Origin: Planctomycetota bacterium
GTDB taxonomy: Bacteria; Planctomycetota; MHYJ01; JACQXL01
Assembly: GCA_016235865.1 (NCBI GenBank)
Contig: JACRIK010000014.1
Coordinates: 1 to 64,000, forward strand
Direction of reading: 5' to 3'
Length of the DNA stretch: 64,000 nucleotides
The position numbers were made by a program, and so were the translations under genes. Under the pieces are notes generated by a model, which saw nothing but the letters and a program-made list of their open reading frames with translations, had not been told where the DNA came from and did no database searches. Within the stretch, counting starts at the first letter, position 1, and the number at the start of each line of letters is the position of its first letter. Below, piece by piece: positions 7,303-64,000 of the stretch.

Positions 7303-7882
7303 ACCTCTATTTTTATTGAGGCCTTTATCCCTGTTCTTTACCCGTAGTGTAGGTAATCTATACCATGGGGGGAGGTGTTCTATACAGAGGGGGGAGGGTA
7401 TGGCACCAGATACGGAGAGGTATGGCACCCGATACTGGTAGGTATGGCACCCGATGTGGAGGGGTATGGCACCCGATGTGGATGGGTATGGCACCCGAGG
7501 TGGACGGGTATGGCACCCGAGGTGGACGGGTATGGCACCCAGTATGGACGGGTATGGCACCCGATATGGACGGGTATAGCACCCGCTATGGACGGGTATG
7601 GCACCCGCTATGGACGGTTATGGCACCCGCTATGGACGGTTATGGCACCCAGTATGGACGGTTATGGCACCCAGTATGGACGGGTATGGCACCCGATGTG
7701 GATGGGTATGGCACCCGATGTGGATGGGTATGGCACCCCATATGGATAGGTATGGTACCCGATATGGATGGGTATGGTACCCCATATGGATGGGTATGGC
7801 ACCCTCTATGGGTATACACCCCCTATCACCATATTTTTGTGATAATACGATGGTAGATAAGTGGTTAGGTAAAAATAGAGGT
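7303..7882. repeat. 22-bp minisatellite enclosed by a 13-bp inverted repeat
   Basis: About 19 tandem copies of a 22-bp unit (GGGTATGGCACCCGATGTGGAC and variants) run from 7396 to 7811. Each unit holds a small inverted repeat, GGGT-ATGGC-ACCC, and some units read GGTA-TGG-TACC. Because 22 is not a multiple of 3, all frames stay open; the resulting reading frames are artefacts. The array lies within a perfect 13-bp inverted repeat, ACCTCTATTTTTA (7303-7315) and its complement (7870-7882). This accounts for most of the gene-free stretch 7257-7965. I see no convincing gene in it. Confidence 0.9.
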
Positions 7883-25620: not shown

Positions 25621-25672
25621 ATGTCAACGAATCAGAAGAATGTTTTAATCCAAACCTTTGGTTGCCAGATGC
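25621..25672 (+). pseudogene. Displaced duplicate of the miaB 5' end
   Basis: Reads MSTNQKNVLIQTFGCQM in frame, then runs into a family C palindrome. The functional gene at 25754 begins MSKNLLMQTFGCQM. Over KN(V/L)L(I/M)QTFGCQM most base changes are synonymous (TTT/TTC, GGT/GGC, TGC/TGT), so it comes from a functional miaB and is not random similarity. It retains its own promoter. Confidence 0.75.
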
Positions 25673-25688
25673 CCCTCGCGATAGCGAT

Positions 25689-25729
25689 GGTCGGGAGCAC
25701 CCCGAAAGCTTTCGGGGAGCGCACCGGGA
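25689..25729 (+). repeat. Family C palindrome, copy 2 (miaB leader)
   Basis: GGTCGGGAGCA, the perfect 18-bp palindrome CCCCGAAAGCTTTCGGGG, then AGCGCACCGGGA. It lies between the displaced and the functional miaB start. Confidence 0.65.
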
Positions 25730-25753
25730 GGCATCAAACGGATAGGTAAAACT

Positions 25754-27025
25754 ATGTCTAAAAACCTGCTTATGCAAACCTTCGGCTGTCAGATGAATAA
25801 ACTTGATTCCGAACTAATCTCCGGCTCATTCATCGACGCCGGATACAAACTGGTTGATTCCGAATCACGAGCCGATGTCATCCTGGTCAATACCTGCAGT
25901 GTCCGCGAACACGCCGAGGAGCGGGTCTATTCCCGGATGATGAATCTCAAGCCGTTAAAGGCCAAGAAACCCGGCCTGGTCATCGGCATCATCGGCTGTA
26001 TGGCCCAGAAGGACAAAGAGGGCATCTTCAAGCGACTGCCGCATGTCTCTCTGGTCTGCGGCCCGCATCGGTATAAGAGTATTGTTAAACAGGTGGATAA
26101 GCTACGCACCAAAGACACTGACAAAGTGGTCTGCGCTGATAAAGAGGGTCTGGTCAAAGGCGAGTCATACGAACACTCCACCTTTCTGGCGGATAAAGAC
26201 CGCGCCTATGTTCAGGTAATGAGGGGCTGTGACAATTTTTGCAGTTATTGCATCGTGCCTTATGTCAGAGGCAAGGAAATCAGCCGCCCGCCTGAAGATA
26301 TTATTGACGAGGTCGGCTCGCTGTTAGATAGGGGAGTCAAGGAGATTACTCTGCTCGGCCAGAATGTCACGGCGTACGGCAAATCGCTGTCCCTTGATGT
26401 CATTGCGAGGAGCGAGACCCCTCGCTTGTCATTGCGAGCCCCAACGGGGCGAAGCAATCTCATTTACTCGGAACAGGCTCCGCAATCTCATGGATTGCCA
26501 CGGTCTGACGCCTCTGGCGTCATCCCTCGCAATGACAATGTTAATAAGTATAATCTCTCCTGTCTTCTTAAAGAGTTAGTCATTCGTCATTCGTCATTAG
26601 ACATCTCCTTCATCACTAGCCACCCCTCAGATGTAACCGACGAACTCCTAACCACCATGGCATCGCTGCCGCAGGTGAAAAGGGAACTCCACATGCCGGC
26701 GCAATCAGGGTCAGACCGAATCTTAAAGATGATGCGGCGCAGATATACCCGGGCTGAATATTTGGACATAGTGCGGAAGGCAAAGGAACTCATGCCCGAT
26801 ATCAGGATTGTCTCGGACTTTATTGTCGGATTCCCGACCGAGACCGATGCGGATTTCCAGGACACGGTTTCGCTGGTCAAGGAAGCCAGATTTTATAAGG
26901 TATTTATATTCAAGTATTCGCCCCGTTCCGGCACTAAGGCATCCAAAATGGCCGACGATGTGGCGATGGAGATAAAGAAGTATCGAAATAATCGCTTGTT
27001 AGAGGAGTTTAAGAAAACAAAATAG
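25754..27025 (+). CDS. miaB: tRNA-2-methylthio-N6-dimethylallyladenosine synthase, with insert and no TRAM domain
   Basis: A 423-aa methylthiotransferase that adds the 2-methylthio group at A37 of tRNAs. The N-terminal cluster cysteines are C12 (TFGCQMNKLDSE), C48 (NTCSV) and C82 (GCMAQ). The radical-SAM cysteines are C159, C163 and C166 (CDNFCSYC). HMPAQSGSDRIL and DFIVGFPTETD follow. Two oddities stand out. Residues 216-261 are encoded by a 138-bp palindromic repeat, in frame directly after LLGQNVTAYGK. The protein also stops at LLEEFKKTK, before the usual C-terminal TRAM (tRNA-binding) domain of 60-70 residues. MiaB is preferred over a MtaB-type enzyme from the N-terminal motif. Activity may be impaired. 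Confidence 0.9.
   Translation: MSKNLLMQTFGCQMNKLDSELISGSFIDAGYKLVDSESRADVILVNTCSVREHAEERVYSRMMNLKPLKAKKPGLVIGIIGCMAQKDKEGIFKRLPHVSLVCGPHRYKSIVKQVDKLRTKDTDKVVCADKEGLVKGESYEHSTFLADKDRAYVQVMRGCDNFCSYCIVPYVRGKEISRPPEDIIDEVGSLLDRGVKEITLLGQNVTAYGKSLSLDVIARSETPRLSLRAPTGRSNLIYSEQAPQSHGLPRSDASGVIPRNDNVNKYNLSCLLKELVIRHSSLDISFITSHPSDVTDELLTTMASLPQVKRELHMPAQSGSDRILKMMRRRYTRAEYLDIVRKAKELMPDIRIVSDFIVGFPTETDADFQDTVSLVKEARFYKVFIFKYSPRSGTKASKMADDVAMEIKKYRNNRLLEEFKKTK
26399..26536 (+). repeat. 138-bp palindromic repeat inserted in frame in miaB
   Basis: Perfect 12-bp terminal inverted repeats GTCATTGCGAGG and CCTCGCAATGAC. Internal GTCATTGCGAG and GAAGCAATCTCA motifs are typical of the widespread GTCATTGCGAGG-type intergenic repeats. 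Its length is 46 codons with no stop, so the reading frame survives. Confidence 0.9.
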
Positions 27026-28270: not shown

Positions 28271-28434
28271 CTTATCAGTGCCCATCAACTCCGTGGACAG
28301 CGTGTTTGATTAATACTTTACCCGCTTGTAAATCACCAGTATTTTCCAGAACGGGCTTGACAAACCACAGGTAAAGGGTATAATATTATTGGGTAGGGTG
28401 GTAGGACGTAGATTTAGCGTCTTTTCATCCCTTC

Positions 28435-28583
28435 TTATAACGGCTTCGTTACGAGTTATAACGGCAACGTTACGAGTTATAACGGCAACGTTACGAGTTG
28501 TAACGGCAACGTTACGAGTCATAACGGCAACGTTACGGGTCATAACGGCAACGTTACGAGTCATAACGACACCGTTACGGGTC
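28435..28583. repeat. 21-bp tandem array of identical-stem hairpins
   Basis: Seven units of 21 bp, consensus GTTATAACGGCAACGTTACGA. Each unit contains TAACG-loop-CGTTA; the stem is the same in all, and the loop is GCTT once, GCAA five times and ACAC once. Because 21 is a multiple of three, open frames of heptapeptide repeats appear on both strands; none looks like a real gene. With the hairpins at 28773-28862 it occupies most of the gene-free stretch 28271-28870. Confidence 0.85.
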
Positions 28584-28772
28584 AAAGTCAGGTGATTTTG
28601 TGCTTAAATCAGCGCATTTCACCGTTTAATCAGGTGGTTTTAAGGGTGATTTAGGAGTTTTCCCGCCGGAGGCATATACGCCTCTGACGGAGATGGTTGT
28701 TTACATGGTCCGCCTACGCCCTTATGGGCTTTGGCGAGATGAATTAAAAGGGGATTTAGTTGGTTCTGATTG

Positions 28773-56496: not shown

Positions 56497-58545
56497 TTAC
56501 CACACCGGTATTCCCCCAATATGGTCCATAATTACTGATGAGACGTCCACCAGGTTGCCAGTGACCTTACTAAGCGGATTGAGCTGGTTTTTATCCATCA
56601 GAAATCCGATGGCGCTCATGGTGGTATACATGACAAAGGTATTATCCTTATCTGACGCGGCGTTGATAAATACCTTGGCGGATTCCCGGTCGCCCAGCAG
56701 TCCGAGCGAATGCAGGGCATAGGAGCGCAGGAGTTGGTCCCGGGTCTGGGAGGCCTGTTTCAGCAATGCCGGCATAACAATGTCTTTTTTCTTGCCGAGC
56801 ATGGTCAGGGCAATGGCCAGGTTAGAGTGATACGGATAGGTATTTGACCGGTCCGGCAGTTTTTCCCACATCTTCTGCAGAATCTCAACGCCTTTGGGGT
56901 CTTTAATCATTCCCAAAGCCAGGATTAGATAGGGGGTCAGGAGGGTATCGTTTTGTTGTTTTTCATCGCTGAGGATACTGACGATTATCGGGACGGCTTC
57001 GCTGTCTTTCAGCAGGCCCAGCCCGATGGCGGCCGATGCTTTGAACAGGGGTGAGCGGGCCTTTTTGTTTTCCAGAATCTTTCTCAAGTCCGCCTTGGCC
57101 TTGTCATGGCAGGATAGCCCTAAGGCCAGGGCCATCAGGCCGTCGGCTTCAACGGATTTCTCCTTGCGGAATAATTCAGATATAATTTCATAGGATTTAG
57201 GGCTCTTGACCTGGGCCAGGGCCAGGGCGGCATAACCGCGGACTACCGGATACCGGTCACGCAGGAATGCGGCAACAGAATCTCCGGCTTCCGGAGCCCC
57301 GGTCATTCCCAATGCTATGACCACAGCCGTGCGGACATCGGATTCTTTTTCCGCGGTGGGACTGGATTTCTGGAGCTCAGTGATGGCTTCTTTGGTGGCG
57401 ATTCTGCCCAAGGCGAGCGCGGCATAGGCCCGAACCGCCGGATGTTCCTTCTTTCCGCCTTCGGCCTGGTTGAGCATCTTTCCCAGCAGCGCGATGGCCG
57501 AGGCATCCTTGAGGTTGCCGAGCGCCAGCGCCGCGCAGCATCTGACTTCGTGGTCATCTTCCCGGTCAGCCAGGATGTCTTTGAGTGTCTTGGTTGAGTC
57601 GGAGTTATTGACCGGCAGGTAGCCGATGGTCAGGGCGGCGTAACAGCGCCTCAAAGCTATCTCTTTTTTCTTATCCAGCAGGACCTTGCGGGCCAGTTCG
57701 CCGGCCGAGGCGTCGCCGCTAAAACCCAGGGCTAGGAGCATATTGTTGCGGACGAATAAGCGAGTCTCGGATTCCTCGGACTTCTTGAGCAGTTCCATGG
57801 CTTTCTGGCTGCCGGCTGAGGGATCCATGGCGTCCTTGACCTTGCCGAGCGAGATGGCGGCCCGGAAAGCGACAAAGGTGTTCTTATTTGACATGCCTTC
57901 GACCAGGGCATTAATAAGTTCGTCATAAAGCGGGTGGATGGTTACTGATTTTGACCCCTGGCCATCATCGACAATATTTGCCCATTCCACCGGTTCCCGG
58001 AAAGAGATGAATTTATCGCGGTTGTTGCTCCACCAGACCTCCCAGGGTTCTACCACGCCGACGAATGAGGTGGATTGGAACCGGATACTCTGGAAAAGCG
58101 GTTGGAGACCGATACCCGGGGCCGGGCGGGTGGCGCTGGGTGGGGCGGCAGACGTAGCGCCTCTGGAGCCGGAGCCGGGCGTTGGCAGCGGGCTATCCGG
58201 CGTTGCTGGCTGGCTGGGCGGCGGCGGAGGCGGTGGTGTTGCAGGTGTTGGCGCTGGTGCCGGTGTAGCCGGCGGTTGCGGTGTAGCCGGCGTAGTTGGT
58301 TGAGCAGGCGGCTGGCTTGGTGTCCCAGGTGTTTTATCAGGTGGCGGTGTCTCTTTGGGCGCTTCAGACGGTGGCGATTCACGCGGCGCTTCACCCGGAG
58401 CCGGAGGCGCCTCTCTTGGCGCCGGAGGCGGGGGCGGCACGCCTCTTCTGGGACAACAGCTGTTAAGATAGTTTGTATCCGGGGCCAATATAAATATGCC
58501 GCTTAATAAAAGTAGCGCTCCAATTAAACTTTTGGTCTGTTTCAT
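56497..58545 (-). CDS. Secreted HEAT-repeat protein, paralogue 1
   Basis: A 682-aa exported protein. The signal peptide MKQTKSLIGALLLLSGIFILAP is followed by NSCCPRRG, then a 100-residue Pro-rich stretch. Then comes a WEVWWSNNRDKFISFREPVEWANIV domain and about 14 HEAT repeats of the form YAALALGxIxxKEAxxEL. The protein ends GGIPVW. AAAGGAG precedes the ATG. It is the last of four tandem paralogues. The repeats suggest a protein-binding solenoid outside the cytoplasm. The Pro-rich linker is much longer than in its neighbours. Confidence 0.88.
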   Translation of the reverse strand: MKQTKSLIGALLLLSGIFILAPDTNYLNSCCPRRGVPPPPPAPREAPPAPGEAPRESPPSEAPKETPPPDKTPGTPSQPPAQPTTPATPQPPATPAPAPTPATPPPPPPPSQPATPDSPLPTPGSGSRGATSAAPPSATRPAPGIGLQPLFQSIRFQSTSFVGVVEPWEVWWSNNRDKFISFREPVEWANIVDDGQGSKSVTIHPLYDELINALVEGMSNKNTFVAFRAAISLGKVKDAMDPSAGSQKAMELLKKSEESETRLFVRNNMLLALGFSGDASAGELARKVLLDKKKEIALRRCYAALTIGYLPVNNSDSTKTLKDILADREDDHEVRCCAALALGNLKDASAIALLGKMLNQAEGGKKEHPAVRAYAALALGRIATKEAITELQKSSPTAEKESDVRTAVVIALGMTGAPEAGDSVAAFLRDRYPVVRGYAALALAQVKSPKSYEIISELFRKEKSVEADGLMALALGLSCHDKAKADLRKILENKKARSPLFKASAAIGLGLLKDSEAVPIIVSILSDEKQQNDTLLTPYLILALGMIKDPKGVEILQKMWEKLPDRSNTYPYHSNLAIALTMLGKKKDIVMPALLKQASQTRDQLLRSYALHSLGLLGDRESAKVFINAASDKDNTFVMYTTMSAIGFLMDKNQLNPLSKVTGNLVDVSSVIMDHIGGIPVW

Positions 58546-58570
58546 AACGCTCCTTTCCCGGATAAGGTTA

Positions 58571-60448
58571 TCACCAGACCGGTATTGGCAGGAGATGTTT
58601 CATTATTTCCAATTCATTTGAGATGTCAATATTGTCGGCGGTCACTTTATCAATCGGGTTAACCGGATGCTTGTCCATCAGGAAGCCGATGCCGGTTATT
58701 GCCGCTTTGCGCACTTCCGGGTTGTTATCCTTATAGGCCTCGACAAATGCCTTGGCGGTGGCCTTATTTCCAATCAAGCCCAGGGTATGAAGCGCATAGG
58801 TGCGCAGGGTAGCATCCTTTGAGCCGATGTGCTTCAGCAATTCTTCCGTCATCTTTTCCCGTGAAGTCAATTTCATCAGGGCAATGACCAGATTGGTATA
58901 GGCAGTGATGCTAAGGCTCTTATCGGCTTTTGACCACATCTTTTGCAGTATGTCCAGGGTTTGTTTTTCCAGGTCAGATAATTCTTTTATCCGGGCTGAC
59001 TTTGAGCCGATTCCATCGCCTTCAACCACGATTTCCTCCTTTTTCTGTTCATTTAACATGGCCAGGGTCAGGAGCAGATAAGGTGTAAGAATAGTGTCGT
59101 TCTGCTGTTTTTCATCCTTGAGTATGTTGACTATTGTCGGGAGAGTTTCCGTATCCTTGAGCAAGCCCAGGGCGATAGCGGCTGCGCCGCGCAGTAACGC
59201 CCGTGATTTCTTATTATCGGCTAATATTTTCCTCAAGTCCGTTTTGGCTTTTTCATGGCCGGTTAAACCCATGCCGATCAACATTAATCCGTCTGAATTG
59301 GGCGACTTATTCTTCAGCAGCGCCTCGGAGATGGTCTCGTATGCCTTGTCGTATTTTATCTGGGCCAGCGCGACGCAGGCCATTCCCTTAACCGAAGGCG
59401 CCTTATCCTGGAGTAAGGCCAGAATGGCATCCTTGGCTTCTGGTAATCCGGTCATCCCCATTGCCGTGACTGCCGCAACGCGGACATCTTCGTCTTTCTC
59501 AATGCCCGGAGCTATTTTTTTTAATTCATCTAACGCTTCTTTGGTGCCGATTCTACCCAGGGCCAGGGCCGCATACGCCCTGATCATGCCTTGTTCCTTT
59601 TTGCCGCCGTCTCCGGTAAGGATTTTGCCTAAAACAGGAACTGCGGACGTATCTTTAAGGTTGCCTAAGGAAAGACAGACGGATGATTTTACTTCAGCGT
59701 TTTCCTTTTCGGCGGTTAATAAATCCCGGAGTATCTTGGGCGCGTCAGAGTCGCCGGGCAGGTAACCCAAGGCCAGCGCCGCATAGGAACGTTTTAAAGG
59801 CGGATTTTTAGTCTGCAGGATATTTTTTAGAATCGGTATCACCGAAATGTCGGATGTGAGTCCCCAGCCTATGAGAACATTATTCGCGACGAAGTAACGG
59901 GTTTCGGTCTCATTGGCCTTTTTGAGAGCCTCGATGGCTTTAGGGCTGCTGATTGCGGGATTCTGGGAATCCTGGGCTTTGCCCAGGGCAATAGCCGCCC
60001 GGAATGCCAAGTAGATATCCTTATCTGCTACGCCGTCTACCAGCGCATTGAGAAGTTCGTCGTAAATAGGAGAAATCGAAAATGATTTAGTGCCTCCCTG
60101 GTCCACAATATTTGCCCACTCAATAGTCTCCCGGAATGCGAGATATCTATCACGATTTCGGGTCCACCAGGCCTCCCATGGTTCAGCCACGCCTAACAGT
60201 GATTGGGCGCTCTGAATTAATGGCATCAATCCAGGACCTAATTGGGGGCGGGGAGGCGCTGAAGGCGCCGGCGGCCTGGTCGTTGGAGTGGTTTCGCCTG
60301 ATGGAGGTGCGGGTGTGCTTGGAGCCGGAGTTGAGCCGCCGCTGCCGCCACGCGGGCAGCAACTGTCCAGTAAATTCATATCCGCGGTCAGGAGAAAAAG
60401 CCCAAGTAATAATATAATAGCCCCCGCCAGATATTTTATGGTTTTCAT
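58571..60448 (-). CDS. Secreted HEAT-repeat protein, paralogue 2
   Basis: A 625-aa protein with the same plan as its neighbours. The signal peptide is MKTIKYLAGAIILLLGLFLLTAD, followed by DSCCPRGG, a shorter Thr/Pro linker (about 40 residues), WEAWWTRNRDRYLAFRETIEWANIV, about 13 HEAT repeats, and a tail LLPIPVW. It includes a charged insert near residues 470-490 (EEIVVEGDGIGSKSARIKEL) not present in paralogue 1. AAAAGGAGG lies before the ATG. It is 25 nt upstream of paralogue 1. Confidence 0.88.
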   Translation of the reverse strand: MKTIKYLAGAIILLLGLFLLTADMNLLDSCCPRGGSGGSTPAPSTPAPPSGETTPTTRPPAPSAPPRPQLGPGLMPLIQSAQSLLGVAEPWEAWWTRNRDRYLAFRETIEWANIVDQGGTKSFSISPIYDELLNALVDGVADKDIYLAFRAAIALGKAQDSQNPAISSPKAIEALKKANETETRYFVANNVLIGWGLTSDISVIPILKNILQTKNPPLKRSYAALALGYLPGDSDAPKILRDLLTAEKENAEVKSSVCLSLGNLKDTSAVPVLGKILTGDGGKKEQGMIRAYAALALGRIGTKEALDELKKIAPGIEKDEDVRVAAVTAMGMTGLPEAKDAILALLQDKAPSVKGMACVALAQIKYDKAYETISEALLKNKSPNSDGLMLIGMGLTGHEKAKTDLRKILADNKKSRALLRGAAAIALGLLKDTETLPTIVNILKDEKQQNDTILTPYLLLTLAMLNEQKKEEIVVEGDGIGSKSARIKELSDLEKQTLDILQKMWSKADKSLSITAYTNLVIALMKLTSREKMTEELLKHIGSKDATLRTYALHTLGLIGNKATAKAFVEAYKDNNPEVRKAAITGIGFLMDKHPVNPIDKVTADNIDISNELEIMKHLLPIPVW

Positions 60449-60493
60449 AGCTACCTCCTTTTTAGTCCTGCCTGCCGGTCGGAGTGTAAGGGT

Positions 60494-62389
60494 TTACCAA
60501 ACTGGTATCGGCAGGATGTGATCCAGTATCATCATCTGCATATCAACGCTGTCCGATGTTATCCGGTCAACTGGATTTATCGGATTTTTATCCATCAGGA
60601 ATCCTATGCCGACCATTACGGCCTTACGCATCTCAGGGTTATTATCCTTGGCGGCATCAATAAATGCCTTGGCTGAATCCCTGTTGCCGACCAGGCCGAG
60701 CGTGTGCAGGGCATAAGAGGCCAGGGTCTTGTCATTGCTGTTGATATGTTTTATCAGTTGTTCTACCACTTCGTTTCTTTTGCCCATTCTGGCTAGTGCG
60801 ACAGCCAGATTGGTGTAGGCGGTAATAGTCAGTTTTTTGTCTGCCTTAGCCCACATCTTCTGGAGTATTTCAACCATTTGTTTCTCTGCATTCGGCAGTT
60901 CTTTCTTCTTAACCGCTTCAGTATCAGAACCTTCTTTTTCAAATACTTCGTCTTTCTTCGGCTCGCTAATCATTGCGACCGATAAGATAAGATAAGGTGT
61001 CAGCGTTGTCTCATTTTGCTGTTTATCTTCCTTGAGGATATCGACCATTATCGGAATTGTTTCGGCATCCTTAAGCAAGCCTAGTCCGATAGCGGCCGCG
61101 CCGCGCAGTAACGCACGTGACTTCTTGTTGTCGGCTAATATCTTCCTTAAGTCCGTCTTGGCTTTCTCATTACCGGTCAATCCCAGGGCAATCAGCATCA
61201 AACCGTCGGCATCGGTGGTTTTGTTTTTCTGAAGCGCCTCTGAAATGGTTTCGTATGCTTTTTCGTATTTTATCTGGGCCAGCGCGATACAGGCCATGCC
61301 TTTGACCGATGGGGTTTTGTCCTGCATGAAAGCCAGGATGGCGTCCTTGGCTTCGGGCAATCCGGTTATTCCTAATGCCATCACCACGGCCGCCCGGACA
61401 TCGCTTTCTTTTTCATTGGCCGGGGTGAATTTCTTCAGTTCATCCAACGATTCCTTGGTGGCGATTCGGCCCAGGCCTAAAGCGGCGTGCGCCCGGATGG
61501 TTCCCCGTTCCTTTTTGCTGACACCATCGCCGTTAAGTATTTTACTCAGGACCGGAACCGATTCGGCGTCCTTGAGATTACCTAAGGCGATGCAGGCGGA
61601 TGATTTTACTTCGTGGTCATCCTTATCAGCCGTGATGATGTCGCGGAGTATTTTGGGGATTTCCGGGTCGTTGGCAACATAGCCTAACGCTAATGCGGCA
61701 TAGGATCGTCTCAATGAAGAATTGTCTTTTTTGTTCTGGAGCGCTTCTTTGATTACGCCGGATACGGTATTATCCGCGGTAAGCCCTAGCCCAAATAGGA
61801 TATTATTACTGACGAAATCACGCTTTTCGGATTCGTGCGCCTTTTTAAGGACCTCTACGGCTTTGGGGCTGCTGGCCGCGGGATTCTGGGAATCCTGGGC
61901 TTTGCCCAGGGAAATAGCCGCCCGGAATGCCACATAGTGGTCTTTATTGCCCACTCCGTCGGACAGGACATTTATAAGTTCGGCATGAAGAGGGGAGATG
62001 GAATATGATTTGGTTCCGCCCTGGTCAACGATATTGGCCCATTCAATCGGGGCCCTGAATGCCAGATACTTATCGCGATTCCGGCTCCACCAGATTTCCC
62101 ATGGTTCGACTGCGCCGGTTAGAAACTGGATACTCTGTATCAGCGGCTGCAGCCCCACGCCCAAACTTGGTCTGGGGGTAGGTGCAGGTCCCGGACCTCC
62201 TCTTGGGGTGGGGCCGGGAGTCGGCGGCGGCACTCCGGGCGTTGAGGAGTCAGGCGGGGGCGGCGGAGGCGGAGGCGGTGTATATCCGCCCATCTTCGGT
62301 GGATTTGGGCACCATCCGTCAACATTTTGAATCTGGGTTATCGATAGAATGGCTGCCAGGGCTATTATTCCGATTAGGATTTTTCTCAT
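60494..62389 (-). CDS. Secreted HEAT-repeat protein, paralogue 3
   Basis: A 631-aa protein. The signal peptide is MRKILIGIIALAAILSI, followed by GWCPNPPKMGG, a Pro/Gly linker, WEIWWSRNRDKYLAFRAPIEWANIV, HEAT repeats and a tail ILPIPVW. GAGAGGAG precedes the ATG at 62389; an open frame continuing to 62545 overlaps the promoter and lacks a signal peptide. It has its own sigma70 promoter, so paralogues 3, 2 and 1 plus the GIY-YIG and WD40 genes may form a transcription unit. Confidence 0.88.
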   Translation of the reverse strand: MRKILIGIIALAAILSITQIQNVDGWCPNPPKMGGYTPPPPPPPPPDSSTPGVPPPTPGPTPRGGPGPAPTPRPSLGVGLQPLIQSIQFLTGAVEPWEIWWSRNRDKYLAFRAPIEWANIVDQGGTKSYSISPLHAELINVLSDGVGNKDHYVAFRAAISLGKAQDSQNPAASSPKAVEVLKKAHESEKRDFVSNNILFGLGLTADNTVSGVIKEALQNKKDNSSLRRSYAALALGYVANDPEIPKILRDIITADKDDHEVKSSACIALGNLKDAESVPVLSKILNGDGVSKKERGTIRAHAALGLGRIATKESLDELKKFTPANEKESDVRAAVVMALGITGLPEAKDAILAFMQDKTPSVKGMACIALAQIKYEKAYETISEALQKNKTTDADGLMLIALGLTGNEKAKTDLRKILADNKKSRALLRGAAAIGLGLLKDAETIPIMVDILKEDKQQNETTLTPYLILSVAMISEPKKDEVFEKEGSDTEAVKKKELPNAEKQMVEILQKMWAKADKKLTITAYTNLAVALARMGKRNEVVEQLIKHINSNDKTLASYALHTLGLVGNRDSAKAFIDAAKDNNPEMRKAVMVGIGFLMDKNPINPVDRITSDSVDMQMMILDHILPIPVW

Positions 62390-62417
62390 ATGGATGCTCC
62401 TCTCGACTACAGGTCTT

Positions 62418-62446
62418 GTATATATCCTTAAACCGCTGTTTGTCAA
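62418..62446 (-). promoter_or_regulatory. Sigma70 promoter of HEAT paralogue 3
   Basis: Minus strand: TTGACA (62441-62446), 16-17 nt, TATATA/ATATAC. The predicted leader is about 25 nt and contains GAGAGGAG, so this transcript is leadered, unlike several others here. Confidence 0.7.
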
Positions 62447-62538
62447 TAATATTGCTCTATAATATAGAATGTTTGAGAGGGCTATAATACTGCATCTAAT
62501 GTTAAAATATTTCAAATCTGATGCAGTGCTCCCTGATA

Positions 62539-64000
62539 CTACCACACCGGTATCGGAAGGATATGGTCCATTATGCGCATCTGGATATCGACGCTATCCG
62601 CCGTTACCTTATCAATCGGATTTATTTGATTCCTGTCCAGCAGGAATCCTATAGCGCCTATTACGGCCTTACGCACATCAGGATTATTGTCTTTGGCGGC
62701 ATCAATAAATGCTTTGGCCGAATCCCGGTTGCCGATTAATCCGAGGGTGTGCAGGGCGTAAATCCGCAGCGTGGCGTCCTTGGCAGTTGCATGTTTAAGT
62801 AATTGTTCTATAATCTGATTTCTTGATGTGAATCTCATCATCGTAATCGCCAGGTTGGTATAGGCGACAATGTTGATATTTTTATCAACCCTGGCCCACA
62901 TCTTTTGCAATATCTCCACTTCCAGTTTTTCCAGACCCGATAATTCACTGGTAGTTTTCTTGTTTTCCTGGTCATGAATCATGGCCAGCGATAGAATCAG
63001 GTATGGCGCGAGAATGGTGTCATACTGTTGCTTATCATCCTTAAGGATACTGACTATTATTTCAATCGCATCCTTATCCTTAAGCAGTCCCAGTCCGATA
63101 GCGGCCGCGGCCTTAAGCAATGGCCTTGTTTTACGGCTGTCTGCGGATAATATTTTTCTCAGGTCCGCTTTGGCCTTATCATTGCCGGTCAGGCCCAGGG
63201 CGATCAGCATCAAGCCGTCAGCTTCCGGCGATTTGTTCTTCAGCAATGCCTCGGAAATCATGTCGTATGACTTGGAGTCTTTTATTTGAGCCAGCGAAAT
63301 ACAGGCTAATCCTCGGACGACATTAGCTTTATCTTGCAGGAATTCGATAATAGTATCCCGGGCGTCCGGTGACCCATTCATACCCAAAGCCATAATGACA
63401 GCCGAACGGAGGTCATTTTCCTTTTCAGTATCCTGGGTAAATTTTTTCAGCTCATCCAGCGCTTCTTTAGTGCCGATTCTGCCCAACCCCAGGGCCGCAT
63501 GCGCTCTGATCATCCCCTGTTCTTTCTTGCCGCCGTCGCCATTAAGGATTTTGCCTAAAGTCGTAACTGCCGAGGCATCCTTGAGATTGCCCAGTGAGAT
63601 GCAGCAGGTGGATTTTACTTCTCGGTCTTCCTTTTCGGCCGATAATATCTCTTTGAGCGCAGATGATATCTCGGAGTTATTGGCAACGTAACTCAATGCC
63701 AGCGCCGCAAATGAGCGCCTCAACGGGGCATTATCTTTTTTCTGCAGGACATTTTTTATAATGGCTATCGTGGAAGTATCAGAGGTGAGGCCCAGCCCCA
63801 AAAGGACATTATTCCTGACGAAATCTCTGGTTTCTGATTCGTACGCCTTCTTAAGAACCTCGATGGCTTTTTGGTTGCTGGCCGCGGGATTCTGCGGGTC
63901 CTGCGCTTTGCCCAAGGCAATAGCCGCGCGAAATGCCAAATAAGGGTCTTTATCGTCCACGCCGTCGGCCAATATGCTGATAAGTTCGTCATAAACAGGG
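62539..64000 (-). CDS. Secreted HEAT-repeat protein, paralogue 4, 5' truncated by window edge
   Basis: The reading frame is open to the window end: the codons before the first possible start read PVYDELISIL, matching the paralogues' PIYDELLNAL, so the gene continues beyond 64000. What is visible is HEAT repeats and a charged break at about 300-320 (HDQENKKTTSELSGLEKLE), ending ILPIPVW. It is most like paralogues 2 and 3. Its stop is 93 nt upstream of the paralogue 3 promoter. Confidence 0.88.
   Translation of the reverse strand, partial: PVYDELISILADGVDDKDPYLAFRAAIALGKAQDPQNPAASNQKAIEVLKKAYESETRDFVRNNVLLGLGLTSDTSTIAIIKNVLQKKDNAPLRRSFAALALSYVANNSEISSALKEILSAEKEDREVKSTCCISLGNLKDASAVTTLGKILNGDGGKKEQGMIRAHAALGLGRIGTKEALDELKKFTQDTEKENDLRSAVIMALGMNGSPDARDTIIEFLQDKANVVRGLACISLAQIKDSKSYDMISEALLKNKSPEADGLMLIALGLTGNDKAKADLRKILSADSRKTRPLLKAAAAIGLGLLKDKDAIEIIVSILKDDKQQYDTILAPYLILSLAMIHDQENKKTTSELSGLEKLEVEILQKMWARVDKNINIVAYTNLAITMMRFTSRNQIIEQLLKHATAKDATLRIYALHTLGLIGNRDSAKAFIDAAKDNNPDVRKAVIGAIGFLLDRNQINPIDKVTADSVDIQMRIMDHILPIPVW

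Follow-up and report, generated by a model that had tools for sequence, protein, structure and literature searches.

The insertion of palindromic DNA in frame into protein-coding genes is best known from Rickettsia, whose palindromic elements (RPE) RPE-1, RPE-4 and RPE-6 resemble the repeat described here in being dispersed palindromic sequences that lie in frame in working housekeeping proteins. RPE-6 and RPE-4 have been equated with the CGTC-1 and CGTC-4 REPs (PMC3733652), and intragenic in-frame GTAG/CGTC REPs are on record from many species, including in several tRNA-modifying enzymes (Di Nocera et al. 2013, PMC3733652), which makes the miaB case presented below less unusual than it seems. 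The CGTC REP superfamily, reported from five phyla with the Planctomycetes not among them, is characterized by a CGTC tag (TGTC and CCTC variants allowed), an 8–9 bp stem starting with AT, a 4–5 nt loop and a 3-nt unpaired tail, mostly CCA, without a linked RAYT transposase (PMC3733652). The enterobacterial RU/ERIC sequences are comparable as small palindromic mobile sequences inside genes that are read as peptides, but are unrelated in sequence and consist of longer MITE-like units (PMC2759123).

The locus compared with these systems lies in the window (the whole stretch of 64,000 nt that was analysed), on contig C14 of a 2.67-Mb MAG (96% complete, 2% contaminated), whose nearest named relative according to MiaB is Candidatus Brocadiia isolate DeMMO4_16 (Planctomycetota). 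The features in and around the gene were the following:

25754..27025, + strand: miaB, tRNA (N6-isopentenyl adenosine(37)-C2)-methylthiotransferase without TRAM domain, 423 aa (TIGR01574; UPF0004 and Radical_SAM; Foldseek to 7mjz)
26398..26537, + strand: inserted palindromic repeat, 140 bp, 13-bp perfect arms TGTCATTGCGAGG/CCTCGCAATGACA
26427..26461, + strand: complete single REP-type unit nested in the insert, TGTCATTGCGAGCCCCAACGGGGCGAAGCAATCTC (DNA fold -8.1 kcal/mol, z -2.8)
26578..26598, + strand: second, unrelated simple repeat (GTCATTC)n in miaB, coding for VIRHSSL at a helix end before the next strand
25621..25749, + strand: diverged stub of a miaB start (MSTNQKNVLIQTFGCQM...), entering another GC-rich palindromic repeat

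The 138 bp at 26399–26536 correspond exactly to codons 216–261 of the miaB ORF (VIARSETPRLSLRAPTGRSNLIYSEQAPQSHGLPRSDASGVIPRND), position 26399 being the start of codon 216 counted from the ATG at 25754; the coordinates, sequence and phase of a 46-codon palindromic insert with zero stops, as originally proposed in the sequence-only reading, were thus all confirmed. Its 12-bp perfect inverted ends were also found, albeit the arms reach 13 bp when T at 26398 and A at 26537 are counted. A palindrome formed by chance is ruled out by the exact match of the 12-mer at both ends, by the 44 exact sites of the 10-mer TCATTGCGAG in the MAG, where its reversed control has 2, and by an RNA fold of -65.6 kcal/mol for the insert against -41.9 kcal/mol for its shuffles (z -5.6). 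Of the insert's six reading frames, the open ones are frames 0 and 1 of the sense strand; the encoded peptide has a high content of arginine and serine, and the full 138 bp are present once in the genome. The insert looks like a REP-type dimer carrying one whole extra nested unit (26427..26461), to which about 30 partial matches exist elsewhere in the genome; the perfect arms may indicate a young insertion. An Rfam search of the insert gave no match.

For the repeat family, the genome was read in stretches around the elements, and 30 places, including a few carrying a mismatch, were examined. The units follow the pattern TGTC-ATTGC...GCAAT-CTC and frequently form dimers of 66–112 bp in either orientation. 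The stem opens with ATTGC and is interrupted by an internal loop (5+2 or 5+5 bp, hairpin loop of 3–4 nt), the tail consists of 3 unpaired nt, CTC, and both termini of the insert, like most genomic units, have TGTC. In common with the CGTC superfamily the planctomycete element has an allowed TGTC tag, an AT stem start, a 3-nt unpaired tail, dimers, intragenic members and the absence of a linked transposase, while it differs in having a stem of 5 bp, internal loop and 2–5 bp instead of 8–9 contiguous pairs, a CTC instead of a CCA tail, and both dimer orientations in common use. Membership in the superfamily is not claimed because of the interrupted stem. A RAYT transposase adjoining the elements was considered and dropped, as none was found; the genome encodes two Y1_Tnp (Y1 transposase) genes, and the flanks read around them contained no element core. 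Searching the literature for the sequence of this repeat produced nothing relevant. The family is frequent in the order, with exact matches to GTCATTGCGAG numbering 145 in G003, 60 in G002 and 39 in G007; it was near zero in most of the phylum, with the exception of G033 (18 matches), and was absent from G001, the nearest relative, whose genome is partial.

Alignment with the MiaB of relatives showed an empty site: the nearest relative (73% identical) and 42 others all lack the insert, and their sequences run straight across its position. The distance from LLGQNV to TSHP was 39–44 aa where measurable, 53 aa in the nearest relative and about 92 aa here. No relative had an equally long loop; about 27 extra residues in G021 and G012 (L009, L014) nevertheless indicate that the length of this loop is naturally variable. 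The AlphaFold2 model of the protein (mean pLDDT 86) matched Thermotoga MiaB 7mjz in Foldseek with a TM of 0.81, and its sole low segment was formed by residues 223–262 (pLDDT below 50). The proposed loop position agreed with this model, in which the insert lies between strand 197–201 and helix 268–278 of the radical-SAM barrel. Judging from radical-SAM topology, the loop would be on the side of the barrel carrying the active site, which makes a partial loss of activity plausible. At about the place of the VIRHSSL peptide the miaB of the nearest relative contains a different simple repeat, and a 13-mer of the (GTCATTC)n repeat recurs inside an open frame in L155.

TRAM is the usual tRNA-binding part of MiaB, typical of the family but not required by the equivalog model. 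The protein encoded here scored 396.9 bits with TIGR01574 (the MiaB equivalog) against a cut-off of 355.3, thus passing without TRAM. In an alignment of 44 sequences, the invariant C12, C48, C82, C159, C163 and C166, i.e., the three cysteines of the auxiliary cluster and the three of the radical-SAM cluster, were all kept in the product, as were the remaining invariant residues. The ORF ends where TRAM would begin, and the domain is likewise missing in L002, L003 and L004 from the same family and order, so that its absence is inherited and not a form of damage; a pseudogene arising by TRAM loss was rejected on the same ground. Three methylthiotransferases above the family cut-off are encoded in the genome: this MiaB, and L172 and L173, recognized by eye from their sequences as probable RimO and MtaB, respectively. 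This leaves a single, intact miaB and no second copy; MiaA is also encoded. Outside the insert, the comparison of miaB with its nearest relative L061 gave pN 0.15–0.17 and pS 0.66–0.80, indicating purifying selection, with synonymous sites so near saturation that this divergence is unable to date selection after the insertion. Overall, the gene appears to be functional. The stub at 25621–25749 ends a few bases short of the real miaB ATG and might be either what is left of a miaB that was replaced or an ORF upstream of the gene.

The miaB insert was one of eight cases among the 30 places in which the element lies in frame in a gene of a recognized family. The expectation that such repeats are usually intergenic was correct for about 22 of the 30 places and failed for the rest. 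Beside miaB, the intragenic cases in this genome and the same-family MAG G003 were:

L147: RluD with in-frame element; orthologues show an empty site
L165, 2296–4302: GatE with in-frame element; orthologues show an empty site
L153: UnbV/FG-GAP protein with in-frame element
L152, 5424–5449, and L163, 3986–4012: two trypsin-like protease paralogues with in-frame element
L159: secretin with in-frame element near the N-terminus
L146, 2826–5579: glycosyltransferase-GNAT-methyltransferase fusion with element-coded linker
L219 (G003): diphthine-ammonia ligase-like protein with in-frame element
L213 (G003): GltD-like oxidoreductase with in-frame element
L226 (G003): inositol-1-phosphate synthase with in-frame element
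L230 (G003): TIGR03960 radical-SAM protein with in-frame element

In G003, 29 places were read, and at least four were in frame in recognized families. Several open frames of the repeat are used as peptide (VIARSE, CHCE, SLR, ARND). Ten intergenic places were inspected for genes split by the element, and in none did the two flanks share a Pfam family, though one pair lacked any Pfam match. The frame would be preserved in about 17% of random insertions, an estimate which assumes that every intragenic case was found, and the probability of seven in-frame survivors out of seven independent ones is roughly 4e-6; together with the lack of a broken gene this is an indirect sign that the host proteins remained necessary once the element had inserted. 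In the protease pair, the element sits in an identical stretch of 60 bp, whereas the genes have otherwise diverged to pS 0.66, suggesting gene conversion or a recent event, and long-term retention of the element in this pair was dropped as an explanation. GatE was likewise abandoned as an essential gene proving function, since GatB is also encoded. In L146, a glycosyltransferase is apparently joined to a GNAT and methyltransferase protein by the element-coded linker.

The parallel with the Rickettsia elements drawn in the sequence-only reading is valid for the way of working, the repeat being dispersed, recurrent and placed in frame in a variable loop of an apparently functional conserved protein. 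Insertion in frame in conserved proteins combined with empty sites, a feature of the RPE in Rickettsia, was found here in MiaB, RluD and GatE. The differences concern the phylum, the sequence, the use of several frames by the planctomycete element and a host that is not known as intracellular, and the likeness is claimed in the way of working alone, not as homology. The presence of in-frame repeats in several genes of this genome and of its relative suggests that the tolerance of proteins to palindromic DNA known from Rickettsia also exists in this lineage.

The most probable explanation, with a rough probability of 0.78, is that a copy of a REP-type dimer has inserted in frame and that MiaB tolerates it and keeps its activity. 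The dispersed element would have been copied into miaB in a phase and orientation preserving the frame, at a place where the length of MiaB varies naturally, and translation of the insert would give a loop of 46 residues, probably disordered, lying between a strand of the radical-SAM barrel and the helix that follows, with a presumably near-neutral effect on an enzyme that is made and remains active. Gene-breaking insertions would be purged, leaving survivors in frame, in loops or linkers. A recent knock-out would look identical to such a tolerated young insert, and the perfect arms, the length of a 46-aa segment within the catalytic domain and the 17% chance of keeping the frame by luck are all compatible with miaB being a young pseudogene. 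This is nonetheless considered unlikely, since miaB has no other lesion, the TRAM loss is common to L002, L003 and L004, MiaA is retained, and the in-frame pattern recurs across numerous unrelated genes, none of the ten places tested showing a gene that had been broken.

The strong hairpin (z -5.6) might point to an insert that is excised at the RNA or protein level, or that acts as an RNA hairpin, with the protein lacking it; in that case the frame need not be kept, yet it was kept in every case found, and with neither an Rfam match nor an intein or intron hallmark seen for the insert this is very improbable. An assembly artefact is hardly probable either: the source is a binned metagenome, in which repeats may lead to misjoins, but the 138 bp are short and occur once in the genome, the flanks align to relatives as one gene, and equivalent inserts are present in separate MAGs. 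Retention of the arginine- and serine-rich segment as something useful, for example as a tRNA-contacting replacement of the lost TRAM, would fit a protein without this domain, but L002, L003 and L004 lack both TRAM and insert and the peptide is a generic translation of the repeat, which makes this highly improbable as well.

Tolerance of the inserted element, as the preferred explanation, brings in-frame palindromic insertion to a lineage of uncultured Brocadiia, where it affects multiple genes in two genomes of the same family and is accompanied by empty sites. Whether DNA of this kind gives rise to new protein segments is a long-standing question that becomes testable by comparing the ages of the inserts, their loops and the activities of the proteins, and, for annotators, VIARSE, CHCE or ARND peptides within real proteins are not always gene-calling errors. 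Other, unrelated repeats also seem to add peptides to proteins, for which the sequences are suggestive. It is possible, if somewhat doubtful, that several unrelated palindromic and tandem repeats repeatedly insert into coding sequences throughout the order and add peptides to core enzymes at a high rate, with repeat-coded inserts that differ from genome to genome in orthologues such as GatE; if true, new protein segments would be generated continually across the lineage.

Several further observations concern repeat-coded peptides and the surrounding DNA. Inspected by eye, GatE orthologues contain other inserts of unrelated sequence and apparent repeat origin, PACAGTCLRANTHRQAADR in L197 and NPPSPRLRKGSSSPPSP in L198, and the RluD of G006 has RTPAGRQAG in the loop that holds the element here. 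The G003 radical-SAM protein (L230, 587–2167) seemingly includes several repeat-coded peptides (SLRGPRWPSGDEAIS..., CHPERSEGSHNEMNRDSSVVSLPQND and two GTQAG stretches), while QueC (L167, 3258–3977) contains LPAGRHG from a CCTGCCTGCCGGTAGG palindrome near its zinc-binding cysteines. An archaeal-type GatE (equivalog) is encoded beside GatB in this bacterium (L165, 2296–4302; L183), and GatE is also present in G005, G006 and G007 of the order. Finally, the window itself contains tandem arrays with 22-bp and 21-bp units at 7330–7855 and 28414–28602, and four consecutive diverged copies of a unit of about 2 kb at 56576–64000.
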